DNA of 20,700 nucleotides from a virus, in IMG/VR virus record IMGVR_UViG_3300042504_000534, positions 1-20,700 of that record; one strand, written 5' to 3'. Below are positions 1 through 13,654 of this stretch, one piece after another. The position numbers and the translations under genes are program-made. Below the pieces are notes generated by a model that searched no databases, had not been told where the DNA came from, and worked only from the letters and a program-made list of their open reading frames with translations. Each line of letters opens with the position of its first letter. The stretch's first letter is position 1.

Positions 1-1194
1 CGTCCAGAATCCACCCACCGACACCATCAACTGCGTAAACAGATCCGCAGCGGAAGGGTTGTCACCCGTTGCGACGTAGATTGAACACGGCGCGCCGTTG
101 CTGGAATTCAGCCGCGAGAACGCGGACCAGTCCCGGTCGCCGGATTCCAGATCGGTGAAGTCGTCGGCAATGCGGGCGATAATATCAGCCGCCCGGTAGA
201 CGAAGCCGCCAACTGCATCGCCGGTCACATCCGCCGTCACCGGCCCGACCGGGGTGGCGCCAAGCCTGAACAGGCCCAGAGCGTTGCAGGTGGCGTATTT
301 GCCCGGTGGCACCAGCGCCGCGATCAGGTCGGCGTATGTCGTGTAGTCGGCATTCAGGCTCATGGCGACGGCCTGGTCATATACCCAGTCAACGCCGTTA
401 GCCTGGCGGCTGTGGTACTGGTAAACCAGATAGGCGCTGTCAACGAGCGTGGCCTCAATGTTCTTCGGCGTGCCGAACGCCAGCGGCTTGGGCTTGCCTG
501 TCAGGTCCGATCCGCCTTCCGCGCCGCCCGTCCCAGCGTAAAGCGTCGTCTGGATCGGCTTCTGTAACACCTCGCCATAATCGGCAAGATTGATCGTCAG
601 GGTGTAGCGGTCCCACTGGACGGAGCGGACAGTGCCTTTAAACACCAGCGCCATGTCCGACACGCCACCCGCATCCTGCCTGCCGCGATAGATGAAGATG
701 TCCCGCCCGTCCCAGTAATAGTCGAGCAGGCTGTCATATTCCCCCGCCACAAGCGCGATCTGCACCACGCCGAATGTCGGGACGCCGCCGCCGAACTCGC
801 CCTCGAATACCGATACCTGCGTGCTGATCGCCGTTGTCAGCCGCGCCGGCCACAGCACGCCGTCATAAACCGGGGCCGCCATGTCAGGCCGCCCGGCTGA
901 GAAATAAACGGTGGTTTCCGCTGCGCCCACCGGGTCATAGGGCGTGGCCTTGACCAGCCACACCTTGCCCGCGTCGGAGACAGATGACGCATAGACCAGC
1001 CGCTTGCCAGCGCCGTTGATCTGCCACTCTGCCCATGACCCAGACAGCGCATCCGTGCGGGTGCGGGACCATAGCGTTGACCAGCGACGAGGATCGCGGA
1101 CAGTTGCAGGCCCGCGCCGATAGTAGTCCCACGACGACAAGCCCCAGCGGGCGTCATCCGATAGCCAGTCGCTGCCGCCGAGAAACCGTGTCAA
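1..1194 (-). CDS. Distal tail / hub protein, partial (runs off left edge)
   Basis: This minus-strand frame is open for 398 codons and leaves the window at position 1, so the C-terminus is missing. I place the start at a TTG (1194-1192). AAGGA lies 9 bases upstream, an in-frame TAA at 1209-1207 leaves no room further upstream, and the TTG overlaps the stop of the preceding gene (TTGA). The N-terminus is rich in W, R and Y. Around residues 180-245 there is an FKGTV...LTINLADYGEVLQ...YAGTGG..GGSDLTGKPKPLAFG stretch, of a kind I associate with large siphovirus tail-hub or baseplate proteins of alphaproteobacterial phages. Its place after the tape measure gene matches the lambda M-L-K-I-J region. 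A role in the tail tip or host contact is inferred from this; no catalytic motif is visible in the part present. Confidence 0.6.
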   Translation of the reverse strand, partial: MTRFLGGSDWLSDDARWGLSSWDYYRRGPATVRDPRRWSTLWSRTRTDALSGSWAEWQINGAGKRLVYASSVSDAGKVWLVKATPYDPVGAAETTVYFSAGRPDMAAPVYDGVLWPARLTTAISTQVSVFEGEFGGGVPTFGVVQIALVAGEYDSLLDYYWDGRDIFIYRGRQDAGGVSDMALVFKGTVRSVQWDRYTLTINLADYGEVLQKPIQTTLYAGTGGAEGGSDLTGKPKPLAFGTPKNIEATLVDSAYLVYQYHSRQANGVDWVYDQAVAMSLNADYTTYADLIAALVPPGKYATCNALGLFRLGATPVGPVTADVTGDAVGGFVYRAADIIARIADDFTDLESGDRDWSAFSRLNSSNGAPCSIYVATGDNPSAADLFTQLMVSVGGFWT

Positions 1195-5783: not shown

Positions 5784-6748
5784 TTAGCCATCCCGCGCCG
5801 ACTTCTTCCAGTCCTGATAATCCGACATCACATGATCCAGCGCGTTGAACGCCGACATGACGAACGCGGCTTGATCGTTCACGCCGCCTTCATCCGGCAT
5901 CCGCAGGTATCCGCCTTCCGGCGAGCGGCACAGACCCCACAGCGTCAGCATGTCCCAGCACCAGGCCGGGATGTCGTCAACCGGGTTGGTGTCTACTTGC
6001 TCGCCGAAGATGTCCCACGGGCCGTCCTCGTCCGGGCCGAAGGCTTCGGCTTGCTGGCGGATGAAGAAGGCCCATCGGAGTTTTTTGCGTCGTCGCCAAT
6101 GGCGTTCATCAGGCCCACGGCGCGCCAGCCGATTTCCAGCGCGTGGCCGGTCGGCAGAGCGCTCAGCGTCTCATCTGATACCAGTCCTGCGGTGCGGCTC
6201 ATCTCGATTTCGGAGTTTTCCGCGCCTACAAGGAACATCGCCGCTGCGGTGAGCGGGGCCATCTGCATCCAGAAAAGCTGTTCGCCGTACTTGCGGCCAT
6301 AGGGCGGGAACATGCGCCGCATCTGGCCTTCGAGATCGTCCATCTGGTCTTTCAGCTCGGTGATCTTCTCGAAGGTTTCCAGCAGTTCGGCGCCGATGGC
6401 CTTGGCTTCCTCGCTGCCATCTTCCAGCCCTTCCGCCCTGATATTGGCGTCGATGATCTCATCGCGGTATTCGGTCAGCCGGGATTCGTATTCATCGAGG
6501 AAGGCCAGCAGTTCGGCGCGCTGGTCCTCGGCGACGACCTTGTTGATGCCACGCCGCATGGACGCATAGAGCGTATCCGATGAGACGTGCTTCGCGCCCT
6601 GATCCGACAGGTGCCGGTGCCATTCAGCACGGGCTTGCAGCGTCGGAGTCTTGATAAGATAGACGACTGCACCAGGACGCGGCTTGCCGTCCTCGTCCAG
6701 ATGGTCAACAGGCGTGAACCTGTCCACCTGCTTTGCAGAGGTGATCAT
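5784..6748 (-). CDS. Tail assembly chaperone, -1 frameshift fusion (GT-like, 321 aa)
   Basis: This is the predicted long product made when ribosomes slip back one base at 6080-6086. The first 223 codons are shared with the short form (codon 223 reads AAA after the slip). Decoding then continues from 6080 in the -1 frame for 98 residues to a TAA at 5786-5784. The extension begins LRWAFFIRQQAEAFGPDEDG and ends DWKKSARDG; it is rich in W and acidic residues and looks like real protein. I found no start codon with a ribosome-binding site for it near the junction. Without the shift, 5784-5992 would hold no gene in an otherwise packed operon. By analogy with lambda G/GT, the long form would bind the tape measure and help recruit tail tube subunits. 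It is absent from mature virions in lambda; here that is inferred. Confidence 0.82.
5993..6748 (-). CDS. Tail assembly chaperone, zero-frame form (G-like, 251 aa)
   Basis: The ATG at 6748 has AGGA 7 bases upstream. The protein starts MITSAKQVDRFTPVDHLDEDG and continues with a PGAVVYLIKTPTLQARAEWHR segment. Residues 75-165 are a strongly charged, probably coiled-coil helix (EDQRAELLAFLDEYESRL and onward). After the slippery codons (222-223) the zero frame gives 28 low-complexity residues rich in S, K, R and T, ending at a TAG (5995-5993). This change in composition is what is expected when a frame lies under a gene encoded in another frame. The pair is placed as lambda G and GT are, after the tail tube gene and before the tape measure, though a DUF6441-like gene and an inserted toxin-antitoxin pair intervene. 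Confidence 0.85.
   Translation of the reverse strand: MITSAKQVDRFTPVDHLDEDGKPRPGAVVYLIKTPTLQARAEWHRHLSDQGAKHVSSDTLYASMRRGINKVVAEDQRAELLAFLDEYESRLTEYRDEIIDANIRAEGLEDGSEEAKAIGAELLETFEKITELKDQMDDLEGQMRRMFPPYGRKYGEQLFWMQMAPLTAAAMFLVGAENSEIEMSRTAGLVSDETLSALPTGHALEIGWRAVGLMNAIGDDAKNSDGPSSSASKPKPSARTRTARGTSSASK
6036..6050 (-). other. Small perfect hairpin downstream of the frameshift site
   Basis: GCCGAA and TTCGGC flank a 3-base loop inside the -1 frame extension. It could pause ribosomes near the slippery site, but it starts 29 bases past the heptamer, so a role in frameshifting is uncertain. Short GC-rich palindromes also occur by chance in coding DNA of this composition. Confidence 0.35.
6080..6086 (-). 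promoter_or_regulatory. Programmed -1 ribosomal frameshift site (A AAA AAC)
   Basis: The minus strand reads GCA AAA AAC in the zero frame of the chaperone gene (codons 221-223). This is the classic X XXY YYZ slippery heptamer in the correct register. A -1 slip allows both tRNAs to re-pair as AAA AAA and opens the 98-codon extension. A perfect 6-bp hairpin with a 3-base loop (6036-6050) follows 29 bases downstream. That is farther than the usual 5-10 base spacer, so it may not be the stimulating structure. The identification rests on the heptamer, its register and the extra open frame together. Confidence 0.85.
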
Positions 6749-6776
6749 TGAAGTATCCTATCTATCGGGAATAGGT

Positions 6777-6808
6777 GATAGGGGCTGGACCCGACTCCAG
6801 CCCCTATC
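6777..6808. other. 13-bp perfect stem with 6-base loop
   Basis: GATAGGGGCTGGA (6777-6789) is the exact reverse complement of 6796-6808, with loop CCCGAC. Neither strand has a U-tract after it, so it is not a standard intrinsic terminator. In the minus-strand transcript it ends 28 bases before the chaperone ATG and leaves the AGGA ribosome-binding site outside the stem. It overlaps a second perfect 8-bp stem (6787-6794 with 6807-6814), giving either two exclusive folds or a pseudoknot between the loop CCC and the GGG at 6809-6811. Confidence 0.7.
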
Positions 6809-6900
6809 GGGTCCGCTGCACACCGGGGAGGAAAGCAGCGGGACGGCTAGTGTCGGGGTAGGATTTGTATCCGTGAGGCTACATTTATTGTTGCCCATCC

Positions 6901-6916
6901 GTATCTGATAGGATAC
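6901..6916 (+). promoter_or_regulatory. Candidate operator/extended -10 of the toxin-antitoxin operon
   Basis: GTATC and GATAC arms flank TGATAG. The box overlaps a possible extended -10 (TG at 6906-6907, TAGGAT at 6909-6914) and lies 9 bases before the toxin ATG. Antitoxins of this type usually repress their own promoter through such palindromes, so this is the best operator candidate. A related box GGAT-TTGT-ATCC lies at 6861-6872. Transcription from here would give a very short leader. Confidence 0.4.
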
Positions 6917-6924
6917 AGTTAGAC

Positions 6925-7218
6925 ATGCTTGAAATCCGCCGCACCGCTGAATTCTCCGACTGGCTTCGCAACCTGCGGGATCGTCAGGCAAAGGCACGGG
7001 TCATTGTTCGGCTGGAGCGCGCCGCCGAAGGAAACCTTGGCGACGTGAAGTCGGTTGGCGACGGTGTCGGCGAAATCCGCATTACCTACGGCCCCGGCTA
7101 CCGCCTTTACTTCGTCCAGAAAGGCGAGGTCGTCGTGATCATGCTTTGCGGCGGCGACAAGTCATCTCAGGCCCGAGACATTCGCAACGCCAAGGCCATG
7201 GCAAAGGAGTTGAAATGA
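6925..7218 (+). CDS. RelE/ParE-superfamily toxin (HI1419-type, 97 aa)
   Basis: This is the first gene of a plus-strand pair antisense to the tail operon. The 97 residues match the RelE/ParE-superfamily group known as addiction module killer proteins (HI1419 type, Gp49-like). Visible marks are MLEIRRTAEFSDWLRNLRD at the N-terminus, KSVGDGVGEIRITYGPGYRLYF (43-63, with R52 and R60), and LCGGDKSSQARDI (75-87). The length is typical for the family. Related toxins act as mRNA interferases on ribosomes or, in the ParE branch, on gyrase; the target here cannot be told from sequence. The ATG lacks a strong ribosome-binding site (AGGA is 11 bases upstream), so toxin translation may be weak. Its TGA overlaps the antitoxin ATG. 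Confidence 0.9.
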   Translation: MLEIRRTAEFSDWLRNLRDRQAKARVIVRLERAAEGNLGDVKSVGDGVGEIRITYGPGYRLYFVQKGEVVVIMLCGGDKSSQARDIRNAKAMAKELK

Positions 7219-7490
7219 TCGAAATCGCCAAGTTTGACGCGGCCGAATACCTCGAAAACGACGAGGATTGCGCCGCCTATCTTGAGGCCGCTCTTGAAGA
7301 TGGCGACCCCGAATTCTTCATCCGCGCGCTGGGCACAGTAGCCCGAGCGCGCGGCATGACGCAGATCGCCAGGGACGCCAACCTTGGCCGCGAGAGCCTG
7401 TATAAGGCATTCAATGGCGACCCCAAGTTCGGGACCGTCGCCAAGGTGCTAAAGGCTCTCGGGCTAAGGCTGAGTGTAGCTGCTCAGTAG
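7215..7490 (+). CDS. HTH antitoxin of the HI1420 family (91 aa)
   Basis: The start is the ATG at 7215, overlapping the toxin stop (ATGA) and preceded by AAAGGAG at good spacing. An earlier in-frame start at 7146 would lie inside the toxin gene and has no such site. The protein opens with MIEIAKFDAAEYLENDEDCAAY, typical of addiction module antidote proteins of the HI1420 type. It then has a Cro/C1-type helix-turn-helix at about 48-86 (MTQIARDANLGRESLYKAF and FGTVAKVLKALGLRLSV). It should bind the toxin and repress the operon promoter. The toxin-first order is normal for this family. The gene ends TAG at 7488-7490 and overlaps the tail tube gene tail to tail by 7 bases. Confidence 0.9.
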   Translation: MIEIAKFDAAEYLENDEDCAAYLEAALEDGDPEFFIRALGTVARARGMTQIARDANLGRESLYKAFNGDPKFGTVAKVLKALGLRLSVAAQ

Positions 7491-8656
7491 AAGCAGATGC
7501 TGAAAGCGTCGTTATCGCCGGTGCAGCGGAAGTTGACGGCCTCGGTGGAAAGCCCGTCGCGGTCGCCGCCCTGGTTGTTCTGGGTGGCCTGCACATTGGC
7601 AGCCGTGACAGCGACACGCGAACCAGCACCCGAGCCAGCACGCGCATGGAGAATGCGGGTGGTGTTGGCGCGCATGTCGGCGAAGATGTCGCGGGTGGCC
7701 AGCAGGGTTTCCAGCGGATCGAACGAGCCGGAAGCGTTGCGCAGCGTGATCTGCGCGGGATCGAAGCCTTCGACGGCTTCCGGGTTGTCCGGGTGGATCA
7801 CGGTGTTGCCGCAATCGAAGCTCAGCGTCTTGCACTGTGCGAGGATACGGTTCCAGCGCATGCGGCTGACAGCGGACGAGGTGCCGCGCCAGATTATCTT
7901 GTTGGTGTCGATGTAAGTCGCCGTGCCCAGCGCCGTGTCGGTGGCCTGCACCCAGACGCCCATAAACGAGAACGAGAACTTGATGCCCTCTCCGTTAACC
8001 CACTGCATCGTGTAGGTGCCACGGCAGCCGACGCCCATCATCTTCTTGCCGTCGCGGTAGGCCCACAGGGTCAGCGACGCGATGGACGATGATGCGAAGC
8101 GGTAGACCACGTTGATCGGGATGACATAGTTGGACGTGGCGACCAGCGCGCCGCTCATGGTGTCGGTCAGGGTCGCCAGCTTTGCAGCGGTGTAGTCGGC
8201 GATGAAGCTGTCACCCGCGACCGTGCTGGAGAACGTGATGGGCATCCCGTTGTAGAGATCGGCGGTGCCGGTCGCGGACGCACCGAGGACGGCGGTCGTG
8301 GTCGAACCGCCAGCCGCCAGCGCCTCGGGGGCAGCCGGGACCGAGGTCGAGGTGATCGTCTCAGCCATGCCGCAGCCTTTGAGCAGCACGCCCAATTCGG
8401 GAGCGGTCGAGCCGGTCGAGCGGCCCTTGACCCACACGTCGAAGGTCACGGTCGTCTTGACGCCGCCGACAATCGGCGCGGACACGTCAAGGGCGCCGGA
8501 ATGCTCGTTGGACTGGATGACGTTAGGCGTCTCCGTCCAGTTGATGTTTTCGATTTTGACCGCGTTGCTGGCAAGCGTCGGCGTAACATCGGTGCCTTCG
8601 GTGACTTCCACCTTGGCCAGAAGTTGTTGGGGGCGTGTCCGCACATAGGCGACCAT
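7484..8656 (-). CDS. Major tail tube protein (390 aa)
   Basis: This 390-residue protein starts at an ATG overlapping the upstream stop (TGATG), with GGAG 7 bases upstream. It has the layout of siphovirus tail tube proteins: an N-terminal TRPQQLLAKVEVTEGTD, then ENINWTETPNVIQSNEHSGA, then TVTFDVWVKGRSTGSTAPELGVLLKGCG (about 69-96). A beta-rich middle follows, with a second block (LWAYRDGKKMMGVGCRGTY, GIKFSFSFMGVWV). It is large for a tube protein, so it may carry an extra surface domain around 110-180, where it is T/S/A-rich. In lambda-like phages the tube gene precedes the tail chaperone; here the two are separated by the inserted toxin-antitoxin pair. The last codons (SICFY-stop) lie over the antitoxin stop. 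Confidence 0.82.
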   Translation of the reverse strand: MVAYVRTRPQQLLAKVEVTEGTDVTPTLASNAVKIENINWTETPNVIQSNEHSGALDVSAPIVGGVKTTVTFDVWVKGRSTGSTAPELGVLLKGCGMAETITSTSVPAAPEALAAGGSTTTAVLGASATGTADLYNGMPITFSSTVAGDSFIADYTAAKLATLTDTMSGALVATSNYVIPINVVYRFASSSIASLTLWAYRDGKKMMGVGCRGTYTMQWVNGEGIKFSFSFMGVWVQATDTALGTATYIDTNKIIWRGTSSAVSRMRWNRILAQCKTLSFDCGNTVIHPDNPEAVEGFDPAQITLRNASGSFDPLETLLATRDIFADMRANTTRILHARAGSGAGSRVAVTAANVQATQNNQGGDRDGLSTEAVNFRCTGDNDAFSICFY

Positions 8657-8846: not shown

Positions 8847-9329
8847 TTAGCCTCCGGTTGTTTGCGAGAAGGGGTTGGCGCTTGAGGTCCAGTACTGGAT
8901 CTCGAACTCGATGGTGAACGAGCCGCTGTTAGTCGCGGCGTCCATGGCGATTTCAGGCGTCATGGACAGGAACCGCATATCGACGGCAATGCCGCCCAGG
9001 GTGCGCGGCTCAGTCAGCACGGCTTGCACGGTGCGGGCGTAAAGGTCATTCACTGCGGCCTCAAAGTCAGCGCCGGCCGCGTCCACGTCGCCTTCCTCGG
9101 CGGCCTGCTGGATGTAGCCATAGACCTCGATGGTCATGGTCAGGTCGAGCTGGCCGTAGCTTGGCTCCTCGCCGCGCTCGCTGCCGGCCGCGATGACCAG
9201 GCAGGGAAACGACGAGACAGGCGTATCCCGCCCACGATCGACCGTCACGGCATCGCCGTGTTCGTCCGTCAGGGTTGCCAGGAGCGCGGCAAAGGCCCGG
9301 ATCACCTGTTCGCGGATCGCAACGGTCAT
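8847..9329 (-). CDS. Tail terminator-like protein (160 aa)
   Basis: This 160-residue protein starts at an ATG overlapping the previous stop (ATGA). It opens IREQVIRAFAALLATLTDEHGDAV, then has DTPVSSFPCLVIAAGSE and a strand-rich LDLTMTIEVYGYIQQ. A helix (DFEAAVNDLYARTVQAVL) and a C-terminal GSFTIEFEIQYWTS follow. This helix-strand-helix-strand order, ending in a beta strand with aromatic residues, is that of lambda gpU-type tail terminators, which cap the tail tube and join it to the head. The slot just before the tail tube gene fits well. The sequence is not diagnostic on its own; a minor tail protein of related fold is the alternative. Confidence 0.6.
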   Translation of the reverse strand: MTVAIREQVIRAFAALLATLTDEHGDAVTVDRGRDTPVSSFPCLVIAAGSERGEEPSYGQLDLTMTIEVYGYIQQAAEEGDVDAAGADFEAAVNDLYARTVQAVLTEPRTLGGIAVDMRFLSMTPEIAMDAATNSGSFTIEFEIQYWTSSANPFSQTTGG

Positions 9330-10399: not shown

Positions 10400-13090
10400 C
10401 TAGTTGATGCTGACCTGGCCGGACAGCGCGGGCCGAACTGTAATGGCGCCAGACAGCGCCGGGCGCACCCGGACGACACCGCCCAGCGAGCCGAGATATT
10501 CTTCGCTAAAAGTCGGCGCGTAAGCGGTCATGGTCATTGCCGCCAATGGCGCAGGAATGACGATCTCAACCGATGGCAGAAACGCCGTGAGCGTCATGCC
10601 CGCCATCGGCATCGGCACGTTGATTTCCACGCCGGGCGCATAGGCCGTCATGGCCATGGATGCCGCCGCTACGGTGTCGTACGGGAACGTCCAGCCGGTG
10701 TTGTTGCCCGCATCCAGGTTCCCGTTGTGCGGCTTTGCCTGCCACGTAGCCCCGCCCGTCGCCGCGCTGTCTTTTATGGATAGATACGAAACATCGACCG
10801 TCCCGCTGGCCTTACTTAGGGTAGCCCGCGTGCCTGCCGAACTGCTTTGCAGGGTCACCAGATTGCCCGCCGTGCCCGCTAGGCTCAAGGCGGATACAGT
10901 GGTGGTCGTGCTGGCCGGGAGCGTGAAGCCTGTCGGGCTTACAGTGTTTTGCAGAGCGTTAAACGTGCTGCCGCCGTTGCCGATGGAGATAAACCCCGCG
11001 CCGCCGTTGCTGAGGTTCCAGTACGTCCTACCACCGCTCGTGAAAATCTTGGCCGTTGCCGCAGTCATGAGGATCGTGGCAGTTCCGGGCGTAAACGTGT
11101 GGCTGGCCGCAGCTTGCGTATCCCATGCCGAGCCTGCATCGAGGATCGTCCACGTTCCGCTGCCCATGAGGGTCGCACGGGTGACTGCACCACCGCCTGC
11201 CGAGTAGTTGCCGCAGGTGACGTTCTTGTTGTTGGCGTCGAATGTGCCACCCGTCAGGGTCAGCCTGCGGCCTGCGGCCATCGTCAGCGCATCAGCCAAC
11301 TGCACGGTCGCGCCGGGCGCGTTGACCGTTACCGGGAAGTCCATCGTCACGCCGTTCGACGTGATCACCTGCGTGCCGCTCGTGGCGGCGAAAGTGGTGC
11401 CACTGGTTGTCGCTGTCGCAGTCATTGTTGGTGATAGCGTCAGGTTGCCGTATAGGGTGCGTACAGCACTCGATAACACGCCCGAGAACCCGGTAAAGTT
11501 TAGGTTTCGGATCGGCATATTTGAAGTGACCGGCGCAGCCACGGTGTCTGTCCCTGCCGTCACATTCACGTCAGGGGCCAATGCCTCTGTTTGGCCAACG
11601 ACCCCATAGATTTGACGGATGGCGGTTCCCGACCCGTTGCCTGTGAGGTTGATGGTCGGGCGGTCTACGAACGTCAGGTTGGTTGTGACGTTAACGTTGA
11701 ACGGGATACTCGTACCAGACGATGGCGCCACTGTGCAATAGAACTGCCCCACACCACTGGTGATGGACCGGACGTTGGCGTTGCTGGACGAGAACGCGCC
11801 CGCCGTCAGGTTCTTCCCATTCAGGTCCAACCCGCCAGCCGTCAGCGTGAACGAGCGCGTGCTGCCGATGGTCAGCGCATCGGCCAGTTGGACTGTGGCT
11901 CCGGGGGCGTTCACCGTGATCGGGAAGTCGAGGGTGACGCCGTTGGTAGTGACGACTTGCGTGCCGCTGGTGGCGAGGAAACTGATGACGGTGGCCGAGG
12001 CGCTGAATGTCATAGTCGGCGAGGCTGTCACGCTGCCGTAGGTTGAGCGTGCGATCCTTGAGCACACGCCAGAGAAGCCTATGAAGCTCACGTTGCGCGT
12101 AGAGTCGTTGCCGCTCGCCGTCAGCGTCACCGTTCCAGCGCCAGCCGTGATATTGAAGTCCGGTGATACAGTCTCAGCGACCGCTCCGCACTGGATTACG
12201 CGGGAATCAACCCCGGTGGATGCTCCTGTGATATTAACCGTGGCACGATCAACAAAGGTCAGATTAGTGATCGTACTAACACCCCATGGGTAACCCGTCG
12301 TAGATGTGCAGTAGAACTGGCCCGCACCGGATGTGATGCTGCGGACGTTGCTGTTGCTGCTGTCGAAAAGACCCGCCGTCAGGTTCTTCCCATTCAAGTC
12401 CAACCCGCCAGCCGTCAGCGTGAACGTCCGCGTGCTGCCGATGGTCAGCGCATCGGCCAGTTGGACTGTGGCTCCGGGGGCGTTCACCGTGATCGGGAAG
12501 TCCATCGTCACGCCGTTCGACGTGATGACCTGCGTTCCGCTGGTGGCGGCGAAGGTGGTGGCACTTGCGGTCGGCGTGGCAGTCATCGTCGGCGAGTATG
12601 TCGGGCTGCCGTAGATGGTGCGCGCGCTGTTGACCAGATTGCCGGAAAATCCGGTAAAGTTAACATTACGGCAAACAGCGAGGGAGTTAATAGCGTCCGT
12701 GCCGGCGGTGATGTTGAAACTGATGGCGTTGGCCTCAGTTACCGCGCCGGTCGTGATTGTCCGCTGCCCCACGCTCCCCGAATAGGTGCATTCGATCAGC
12801 GGAGTGCCGGTGTTCGTGCAGGTAGTCGAGCCAGCGAAGATCGCCGCGTTGTTATACGCTAGGCTAATCTTGTATCCAGCCCAATCCAGCGTGCCAGAAA
12901 AACCCGTCTGGTCTAGGATCGCACACGTAACATTCGCGCCTAGCGTGATCACACCACTGTTCGCATTCAGATACGCTACGTCACCTACGCCGGGCACGCT
13001 CGCACCAGTCGCACCGCCGCTCGTCGCGGACCAGATGCCGGTGTTAGACCCGTCCCAAGTGCCGGTGCCTACAGCGTACCGATTTGCCAC
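10400..13090 (-). CDS. Large repeat virion protein, putative fibre/appendage (896 aa)
   Basis: This 896-residue protein is rich in T, S, G, A and N. The start is a GTG (13090) sharing one base with the upstream TAG, with AGAGG 7 bases before it. Residues 1-110 are a unique N-terminal part. Three repeats start near 141, 332 and 527 (RNVNFTGFSG, TRNVSFIGFS, IRNLNFTGFSG). Each contains SPTMT, ATSGTQV, NGVT-DFP, TVNAPGATVQLADALT and, in the first two, LTAGGLDLNGKNLTAG. Residues 640-800 are another beta-like region. The C-terminus has short repeats, MTAYAP/MTLTAFLP (813-859) and two VRPALSG units (875-891). Such repeats suggest a beta-helix or beta-solenoid shaft. Its place after the cement and lipoprotein genes suggests a head or neck fibre, by inference. 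No catalytic motif is visible. Confidence 0.75.
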   Translation of the reverse strand: MANRYAVGTGTWDGSNTGIWSATSGGATGASVPGVGDVAYLNANSGVITLGANVTCAILDQTGFSGTLDWAGYKISLAYNNAAIFAGSTTCTNTGTPLIECTYSGSVGQRTITTGAVTEANAISFNITAGTDAINSLAVCRNVNFTGFSGNLVNSARTIYGSPTYSPTMTATPTASATTFAATSGTQVITSNGVTMDFPITVNAPGATVQLADALTIGSTRTFTLTAGGLDLNGKNLTAGLFDSSNSNVRSITSGAGQFYCTSTTGYPWGVSTITNLTFVDRATVNITGASTGVDSRVIQCGAVAETVSPDFNITAGAGTVTLTASGNDSTRNVSFIGFSGVCSRIARSTYGSVTASPTMTFSASATVISFLATSGTQVVTTNGVTLDFPITVNAPGATVQLADALTIGSTRSFTLTAGGLDLNGKNLTAGAFSSSNANVRSITSGVGQFYCTVAPSSGTSIPFNVNVTTNLTFVDRPTINLTGNGSGTAIRQIYGVVGQTEALAPDVNVTAGTDTVAAPVTSNMPIRNLNFTGFSGVLSSAVRTLYGNLTLSPTMTATATTSGTTFAATSGTQVITSNGVTMDFPVTVNAPGATVQLADALTMAAGRRLTLTGGTFDANNKNVTCGNYSAGGGAVTRATLMGSGTWTILDAGSAWDTQAAASHTFTPGTATILMTAATAKIFTSGGRTYWNLSNGGAGFISIGNGGSTFNALQNTVSPTGFTLPASTTTTVSALSLAGTAGNLVTLQSSSAGTRATLSKASGTVDVSYLSIKDSAATGGATWQAKPHNGNLDAGNNTGWTFPYDTVAAASMAMTAYAPGVEINVPMPMAGMTLTAFLPSVEIVIPAPLAAMTMTAYAPTFSEEYLGSLGGVVRVRPALSGAITVRPALSGQVSIN
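11333..11365 (-). repeat. DNA copy 3 segment shared with repeat copy 1
   Basis: These 33 bases match 12494-12526 exactly. The surrounding repeat copy 3 is otherwise more diverged from copies 1 and 2 at the DNA level, although the protein phrases (NAPGATVQLADALT) are kept. Confidence 0.8.
11799..11929 (-). repeat. DNA copy 2 of the internal repeat
   Basis: It is nearly identical to 12372-12502 (offset 573 bases, 191 codons), including a 74-base exact match from 11856 to 11929. It encodes the LTIGSTRSFTLTAGGLDLNG region with its upstream VNAPGATVQLADA stretch. Identity at third codon positions points to recent duplication or gene conversion rather than selection on protein alone. Confidence 0.85.
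12372..12502 (-). repeat. DNA copy 1 of the internal repeat
   Basis: This is the partner of 11799-11929. Just downstream on the plus strand, 12494-12526 is identical over 33 bases to 11333-11365 of copy 3 (offset 1161 bases, 387 codons), while copy 2 differs there. Copy 1 is therefore a mosaic of sequence shared with copy 2 and with copy 3. Confidence 0.85.
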
Positions 13091-13287
13091 TAGATCACCT
13101 CTTCCGGCGGATCAATCGTCGGCGGCCTCGTCATGGCCTCGCGCCAGTTATCGTATCGAGCCTGCTGCATCGCCGCGACTTCCTCGGGCGTGAGAGCGTC
13201 CCACTGCGCCTGCGTCAGGCACAGGGCATCGTTTAGGATGTAGGGAGCCTCGCCAAACTGGAATGCAACGCAGATCATGTCAGTCAT
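13090..13287 (-). CDS. Small unknown phage protein (65 aa)
   Basis: I place the start at the ATG 13287-13285, which has GGAGG 5 bases upstream; longer frames reach into the lipoprotein gene without a better site. It overlaps the lipoprotein stop by 8 bases and its TAG shares a base with the next GTG. The protein begins MTDMICVAFQFGEAPYILND and ends in a helical stretch (TQAQWDALTPEEVAAMQQAR, then YDNWREAM) and a proline/acid-rich tail. No known family is recognised. Tight coupling to the large repeat protein suggests a helper or partner of it. Confidence 0.6.
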   Translation of the reverse strand: MTDMICVAFQFGEAPYILNDALCLTQAQWDALTPEEVAAMQQARYDNWREAMTRPPTIDPPEEVI

Positions 13288-13654
13288 GCAGCCCTCCATT
13301 GAATCCAGCCTCGACGGGCCACCACGCGTTGGCGACAGACCGCGCCGTGGTTTCGTCAGCGCCGCAGGTATGCGCGACCTCATGGGCCATGCGGTTGTGG
13401 CCATGCGGACCTGATGCCCAATCGTGCTGTGCGTATTTGAGCGGCATCTTGATAACCCCGCCCGGAAACGCCGCAGAAGGCCACTGAGCGGACGCCTCGG
13501 ATACGCCGCCGTAGGTGACCAGCGGGTCAGCCTTGGGGCACGCCAAGCCGTAGCTTGCGGCCTTGACCTTCATGGCGGGGATGTTCTGGTCAGCGGGCGT
13601 GGTGGTGCAGGCTGCCAGCGCCAAGGCGGTGGCAGCAATCAAGATCTTGGCCAT
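13280..13654 (-). CDS. Putative lipoprotein with HEVAH metalloprotease-like motif (124 aa)
   Basis: Residues 1-16 (MAKILIAATALALAAC) form a lipoprotein signal peptide: one lysine, a hydrophobic core and an LAAC lipobox with C16 as the modified cysteine. The mature part has C39 and C97 and, at 91-95, HEVAH, a match to the HExxH zinc motif, followed by E101 in ETTARSVANAW. That arrangement (HExxH, then E-x-x-A a short way on) resembles small gluzincin-like peptidases, but the chain is short and activity is unproven. The start has GAGG 8 bases upstream. It lies between the capsid cement gene and a 65-residue unknown. Possible roles are host envelope modification, superinfection exclusion or cell wall processing; none is shown by the sequence. 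A degenerate, inactive domain is also possible. Confidence 0.75.
   Translation of the reverse strand: MAKILIAATALALAACTTTPADQNIPAMKVKAASYGLACPKADPLVTYGGVSEASAQWPSAAFPGGVIKMPLKYAQHDWASGPHGHNRMAHEVAHTCGADETTARSVANAWWPVEAGFNGGLHD

Follow-up and report, generated by a model that had tools for sequence, protein, structure and literature searches.

The window analyzed here, a 20.7-kb phage fragment from IMG/VR, carries all identified virion genes (those for terminases, adaptor, portal, capsid/protease, decoration, tail terminator, tube, chaperone and tape measure) on the minus strand. Between the tube and the chaperone gene lies a toxin-antitoxin gene pair on the plus strand, and its position antisense amid minus-strand virion genes, which had been pointed out in the initial annotation, was confirmed. 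The features of the locus are listed below, with the basis of each assignment in parentheses.

5993-6748, minus strand: tail assembly chaperone G, 251 amino acids (aligned with relatives L006, 85%, and L007, 47%)
5784-6086, minus strand: GT extension reached by -1 frameshifting at A-AAA-AAC (6086-6080), yielding a fusion of 321 amino acids (slippery site and frame conserved)
6749-6857, minus strand: ancestral tube-G intergenic region with three covarying stem-loops in the late mRNA (covariation and folding)
6858-7483, plus strand: inserted cassette of 626 bp, missing from the near-identical contig L003/L009 (contig comparison)
6867-6882, plus strand: upstream operator-like site GTATCC-GTGA-GGCTAC (6-4-6 pseudo-palindrome paired with the site at 6901)
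6891-6919, plus strand: candidate sigma-70-like promoter TTGCCC-N17-TACAGT spanning the operator (inferred by eye)
6901-6916, plus strand: putative main operator GTATCT-GATA-GGATAC (GTATCTGATAGGATAC), 24 bp before the toxin ATG (conserved before the same gene pair elsewhere)
6925-7218, plus strand: toxin of the HI1419 type, RelE/ParE superfamily (PF05973), 97 amino acids (profile matches and structure model)
7203-7209, plus strand: strong ribosome-binding site of the antitoxin, AAAGGAG (sequence)
7215-7490, plus strand: antitoxin of the HI1420 type with HTH domain, 91 amino acids from the ATG (profile matches and sequence)
7484-8656, minus strand: intact tail tube-like gene (phrog_290; the same 390-amino-acid product is encoded by the empty contig L003)

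The families of the two plus-strand genes were assigned with the curated cut-offs of NCBIfam, which both genes exceeded about twofold. The toxin matched TIGR02683 (upstrm_HI1419) with an E-value of 3.6e-39 and 133 bits (cut-off 62.85), and also PF05973 and phrog_3445 ("toxin"). The antitoxin, encoded directly downstream, matched TIGR02684 (dnstrm_HI1420; E = 8e-34, 115.7 bits, cut-off 53.7) as well as PF21716. With both family models this far above their cut-offs, the HI1419/HI1420-type identity proposed at the outset holds, and by its sequence the pair is an ordinary member of this family. In an alignment of 17 sequences including the window toxin, the latter retained all 21 invariant columns; R52, R60 and K79 count among the conserved residues of this toxin. 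An AlphaFold model of the toxin (pLDDT 90.5) had its best fold match in the PDB with HigB1 of M. tuberculosis (7nbu, E = 2.3e-4), followed by RelE of E. coli (4fxe, E = 1.0e-3), and ParE-type proteins appeared lower in the list. HigB1 was also retrieved by sequence, using a profile of 17 toxin relatives (E = 4e-4). The toxin is thus most likely a ribosome-dependent mRNA endonuclease with a RelE/HigB fold, as judged from the structure model. PADLOC reported just weak matches of the toxin (E = 0.001) to a candidate family. The stop codon of the toxin gene and the start codon of the antitoxin gene overlap in the sequence ATGA. This overlap and the strong ribosome-binding site of the antitoxin, compared to the weak one of the toxin, favor an excess of antitoxin. 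When phages, plasmids, IMG/VR and GTDB contigs were searched for a donor, no close relative was found (best toxin identity about 64%), and a DNA-level search of public phages gave no match.

The genes on either side of the pair had been described as tail tube and tail chaperone; the chaperone was confirmed, and the other gene is tube-like. The product of this right-hand gene shares 30% identity with the protein annotated as tail tube in Agrobacterium phage JP1, and its stop codon and that of the antitoxin gene overlap tail-to-tail by 7 bp. The slippery sequence A-AAA-AAC is located at nucleotide 662 of the G gene in the window, L006 and L007, with predicted fusions of 321, 321 and 320 amino acids, respectively; on this sequence evidence the left-hand neighbor is a true G/GT tail chaperone. 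In L006 (8257-8697, minus strand) and L007 (8310-8537, minus strand, cut by the contig end), which lack the toxin-antitoxin pair, a different antisense gene is present just after GT and before a gene for a DUF6441 protein. This gene is absent from the window. The two products are 34% identical over 58 residues, the N-terminus of the L006 protein is hydrophobic, and neither has a Pfam match; the L007 copy weakly matches phrog_29597, whose function is not known. Antisense genes have thus arrived at both edges of the chaperone gene in this phage group.

The intergenic region between tube and G has equivalents in L006 (7177-7282) and L007 (7174-7278). Among 31 base pairs tested, 98.9% of the alignment cells were paired and eight pairs had changed in both partners, a result that none of 500 shuffles gave, and the folding z-scores of the three stem-loops were -5.3, -3.6 and -2.3. 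The middle hairpin has an invariant 6-nt loop, GUCGGG, which complements both CCCGAC at the 5′ edge of the element and CCCGAY, the loop sequence of the last hairpin, and the stem of the last hairpin covers the ribosome-binding site of G. A kissing loop that controls chaperone translation is therefore possible. The element had no match in Rfam, and a search of 385 alphaproteobacterial genomes with the RNA model gave one marginal match and was otherwise negative, so that within the sequences searched it is confined to this clade.

To check for the presence or absence of the pair at the tube-to-chaperone junction, a comparison suggested by the initial annotation, we used six distinct genomes or loci that inform on this site. 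The contig L003/L009 differs from the window by four SNPs in 12,748 bases (99.97% identity) and aligns with it ungapped, except that the block 6858-7483 is missing; the flanks of the cassette are contiguous in L003 (positions 6222 and 6223). L006, which is approximately 80-85% identical at the DNA level, is empty at the same base as L003, and L007, whose tube is 65% identical, is empty as well. In three alphaproteobacterial loci (L057-L059), tube and chaperone genes are adjacent without a pair between them. As is characteristic of a moron, the pair is absent, with contiguous flanks, from the close relatives L003, L006 and L007. Because the site is empty both in a near-identical contig and in more distant relatives, the pair most likely was inserted recently, and the view of it as cargo placed antisense between two genes that are otherwise neighbors was borne out. 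The outcome that the initial annotation had named as contradicting this view, a pair found here in every relative and with no trace of insertion, was not observed.

An exact junction scan of IMG/VR revealed, besides the window, two contigs with the empty and two with the filled junction. The cassette thereby occurs in contigs from at least two other metagenomes, and one of the filled contigs, L005, differs from the window elsewhere. At the SNP at position 6851, the empty L003 and the filled L005 have one base and the window and L004 the other. If L003 is ancestral, the SNP is younger than the insertion, and the simplest order of events suggested by these sequences would be an empty site, then the insertion, then the SNP. 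We had considered this SNP, located 7 bp from the junction, as a scar of the insertion, but since the filled L005 has the base of the empty L003, it arose separately.

On the plus strand, the empty site reads GTCGGG followed immediately by TCAGTAGAAG. In the filled site, GTCGGG is followed by the cassette, which begins with GTAGGATTTG and ends with GTAGCTGC, and then by TCAGTAGAAG. The junctions are blunt and their placement is unambiguous, with no sliding possible. The inserted DNA represents one complete transcription unit comprising a 67-bp promoter/operator region, toxin and antitoxin, and has a GC content of 58.1% compared to a window mean of 62.9% (standard deviation 1.7). The last codon of the antitoxin gene (CAG) and its stop codon (TAG) are target DNA from the 3′ end of the tube gene, which implies that the insertion either used sequence that was already alike or acquired its stop codon there. 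At its other end, the cassette directly adjoins CCCGAC, with which the conserved part of the intergenic RNA element begins. Both the tube ORF and this element were left unbroken. The cassette had initially been delimited as 6925-7490; these coordinates are correct for the two ORFs, whereas the inserted unit includes the promoter and excludes the last codon and stop codon of the antitoxin gene.

Several further candidates for signals at or near the ends of the cassette were discarded. A 10-bp inverted repeat, GTATCCTATC/GATAGGATAC (positions 6753 and 6907), resembled a signature of insertion but has one arm in ancestral phage DNA, and by our own estimate chance alone gives about 0.5 such pairs per 1 kb. 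A 13-bp hairpin at 6777-6808, considered as a terminator of the cassette, also occurs in the empty contig. On the plus strand, no intrinsic terminator was found after position 7490 up to position 9000, and in the convergent arrangement of the pair and the late operon there is a terminator on neither side of the pair. A terminator of their own is common in described morons, but not universal.

The 67 bp ahead of the toxin gene are A+T-rich (42% GC) and contain the pair of 6-4-6 pseudo-palindromes, which resemble each other and are spaced by 34 bp; their pair score was reached in none of 2000 shuffles of this region. When GTATCTGATAGGATAC was compared with the region preceding the same gene pair in other genomes, 15 of 16 positions matched in Pasteurella phage Pmp13, 14 of 16 in a Giesbergeria MAG, 12 of 16 in a Synechococcus plasmid, a Bradyrhizobium plasmid and a Hydrogenedentes MAG, and 11 of 16 in four Bradyrhizobium genomes; of 1000 shuffled sequences, 0 to 19 scored as high. 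Other homologs are preceded, about as far upstream, by palindromes of another sequence. By this sequence comparison, the element travels with the gene pair rather than with the phage, as would be expected of an operator bound by the antitoxin. The candidate promoter agrees with the consensus in 8 of 12 positions, is weak, and lies below the threshold of a generic promoter scan. In Pmp13, TTGATT-N17-TACAAT is located around the same operator and has the same spacing.

A sister contig, which is 99.99% identical to the window across 13.2 kb around the cassette and reaches past the window, encodes a tyrosine integrase. This integrase, on a contig other than the window, makes it probable that the phage is temperate. 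Among named phages, the nearest have Rhodobacter, Rhizobium, Agrobacterium and Synechococcus as hosts, and several distant relatives of the tube gene are found in alphaproteobacterial genomes. Three other observations concern the remainder of the window. Of 27 differences between the window and the sister contig L011, 26 lie at window positions 19-745, many at third-base spacing, and this pattern identifies positions 1-750 as a region of local exchange with a diverged phage. The minus-strand region 10400-13090 encodes an 896-amino-acid late protein of repeated modules with a marginal PHROG match; the underlying DNA repeats of about 250-325 bp are 76-82% identical and visible as off-diagonal matches in DNA comparisons. 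At 13280-13654 (minus strand), the late operon encodes a small predicted lipoprotein with an HExxH motif (AHEVAHTCG), which suggests a metallopeptidase; it also matches Rz-like spanins weakly (E = 0.002).

Taken with the identity of the genes, the insertion and its boundaries, the conservation of the operator and the integrase of the sister contig, we consider it probable that the pair is a moron acquired recently in one event, a complete type II unit that is expressed in the lysogen, autorepressed, and likely of benefit in maintenance or defense. The unit, consisting of two operators, promoter, toxin and antitoxin, would have entered a temperate alphaproteobacterial siphophage by non-homologous recombination, landing between the stop codon of the tail tube gene and the structured leader that precedes the chaperone gene. 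With the late operon off in the lysogen, the pair, which points against this operon, could be transcribed from its own promoter. We infer that the antitoxin, alone or with the toxin, would repress this promoter by binding to GTATCTGATAGGATAC across it, and that the toxin with its RelE/HigB fold, a predicted RNase, would be held by the antitoxin. The likely benefit would be prophage maintenance or abortive defense in the lysogen, a role proposed for other phage toxin-antitoxin genes in passages of PMC4553209. Upon induction, minus-strand late transcription would cross the pair, which the initial annotation had read as possible silencing. When a type II pair is switched off, the labile antitoxin disappears first. 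Late antisense transcription would therefore be expected to free the toxin and not to disarm the system, so that late toxin activity would be expected from the geometry, unless copy number or a stable antitoxin offsets it.

Two of the other explanations we weighed question the insertion or its vehicle, and we regard both as very improbable. The empty state of L003, which is one contig representing a single near-identical genome, might reflect secondary loss or an assembly error, the pair being an old part of the operon. The junction of L003, however, equals that of L006 at the breakpoint despite an identity of only about 80-85%, L007 and the three alphaproteobacterial loci are empty too, and a loss would need to have regenerated the ancestral sequence without any change. 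The small, precise and self-contained insertion could also be explained by arrival on an insertion sequence, another transposon, a MITE or an integron cassette, but the comparison of the junctions showed neither terminal inverted repeats nor a target-site duplication, no recombination site was found, no transposase or recombinase accompanies the cassette, the placement of the junctions is unambiguous, and the ends of the 626-bp block were found in this context only.

The other alternatives accept the insertion and differ in its consequences. The pair might be a neutral or selfish passenger that landed where it does no harm, between the stop codon of the tube gene and the G leader, and drifted up in frequency without benefit to the phage. 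This agrees with a single insertion event, the lack of the pair in all other relatives and the blunt, illegitimate junctions, whereas the intact reading frames and operators, and the persistence of the cassette in more than one genome, speak against a mere passenger; we consider this reading unlikely, yet the most plausible of the alternatives. Somewhat less probable in our view is that the antisense layout is a regulatory device, a non-contiguous operon in which late transcription collides with the promoter of the pair, shuts off its synthesis at induction and releases the toxin late. The pair indeed has the geometry of a non-contiguous operon, as far as gene layout alone can tell, with a convergent arrangement and a terminator on neither side; the antitoxin gene at the 3′ end would be the part first lost by collision, and in S. 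aureus prophages the Tha/Ith non-contiguous operon provides an example of working antisense switching (PMC11087260). On the other hand, a recent event with unchanged flanks leaves little time for a tuned device, and in the case of Tab, described below, orientation serves expression in the lysogen while control is exerted by a separate protein (PMC10884400). More doubtful still is the further idea that the tail operon became the trigger of the toxin-antitoxin system, late transcription stopping the renewal of antitoxin and freeing the toxin at a set time of the lytic cycle, with read-through from the pair being antisense, in the lysogen as well as in superinfecting relatives, to the mRNA of the tail tube.

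The recently acquired, lysogen-expressed moron that we favor has counterparts in several described systems. The pair of Pasteurella phage Pmp13 resembles that of the window in being toxin-first with overlapping genes of the same two families, a nearly identical operator and the same promoter spacing, but it is located beside the repressor in the early/lysogeny region and not antisense inside the tail operon. Tab of Pseudomonas phage JBD26 lies on the opposite strand between the terminase genes, has its own promoter and is expressed in the prophage (PMC10884400). It thus shares with the window pair the antisense position between late structural genes and a promoter of its own, which in the window is a candidate; it differs in that Tab is one gene whose product blocks tail assembly and which has an anti-Tab counterpart on the late strand, whereas the window has a pair and no late-strand partner gene. 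STMMW_20121 of the Salmonella prophage ST64B has its own promoter and is antisense to lytic genes, a position that the authors regard as characteristic of morons (PMC7067206); it is a different gene whose transcription was measured, whereas the window pair is known from sequence. According to passages of PMC4553209, lambda-like phages of Mannheimia contain hicAB in the late operon between the genes for the major tail protein and the tape measure, likewise a toxin-antitoxin pair in the tail region but of another toxin family, and these passages describe no near-identical empty site. For Tha/Ith, where RNA-seq showed the arrangement of a gene antisense within an operon, mutually exclusive expression was proposed (PMC11087260); it belongs to the lysogeny module and its effector is not a toxin-antitoxin pair, in contrast to the window pair in the late tail operon. 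In Helicobacter prophages, members of the same toxin family neighbor portal and primase genes and are encoded on the strand opposite to them. Another HI1419/HI1420 pair was observed in contig L020 (3672-4288, plus strand), divergent from and next to minus-strand portal and head-protease genes, and its toxin frame appears broken.

The initial annotation had presented the pair as a moron in an unusual place. The antisense insertion is real, but the place is less unusual than implied, given the precedents in PMC10884400, PMC7067206 and the passages of PMC4553209. Both antisense morons within late operons and tail-region toxin-antitoxin genes are thus known already, and what this locus offers is unusually clean evidence for the event. 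Morons are usually inferred from comparison of diverged phages. Here, two genomes that are separated by four SNPs in 12.7 kb and one clean insertion show directly what was inserted, where it begins and ends and where it landed, and the window and L003 form a natural control for the effect of a toxin-antitoxin moron on the prophage and for the effect of antisense placement in a late operon.
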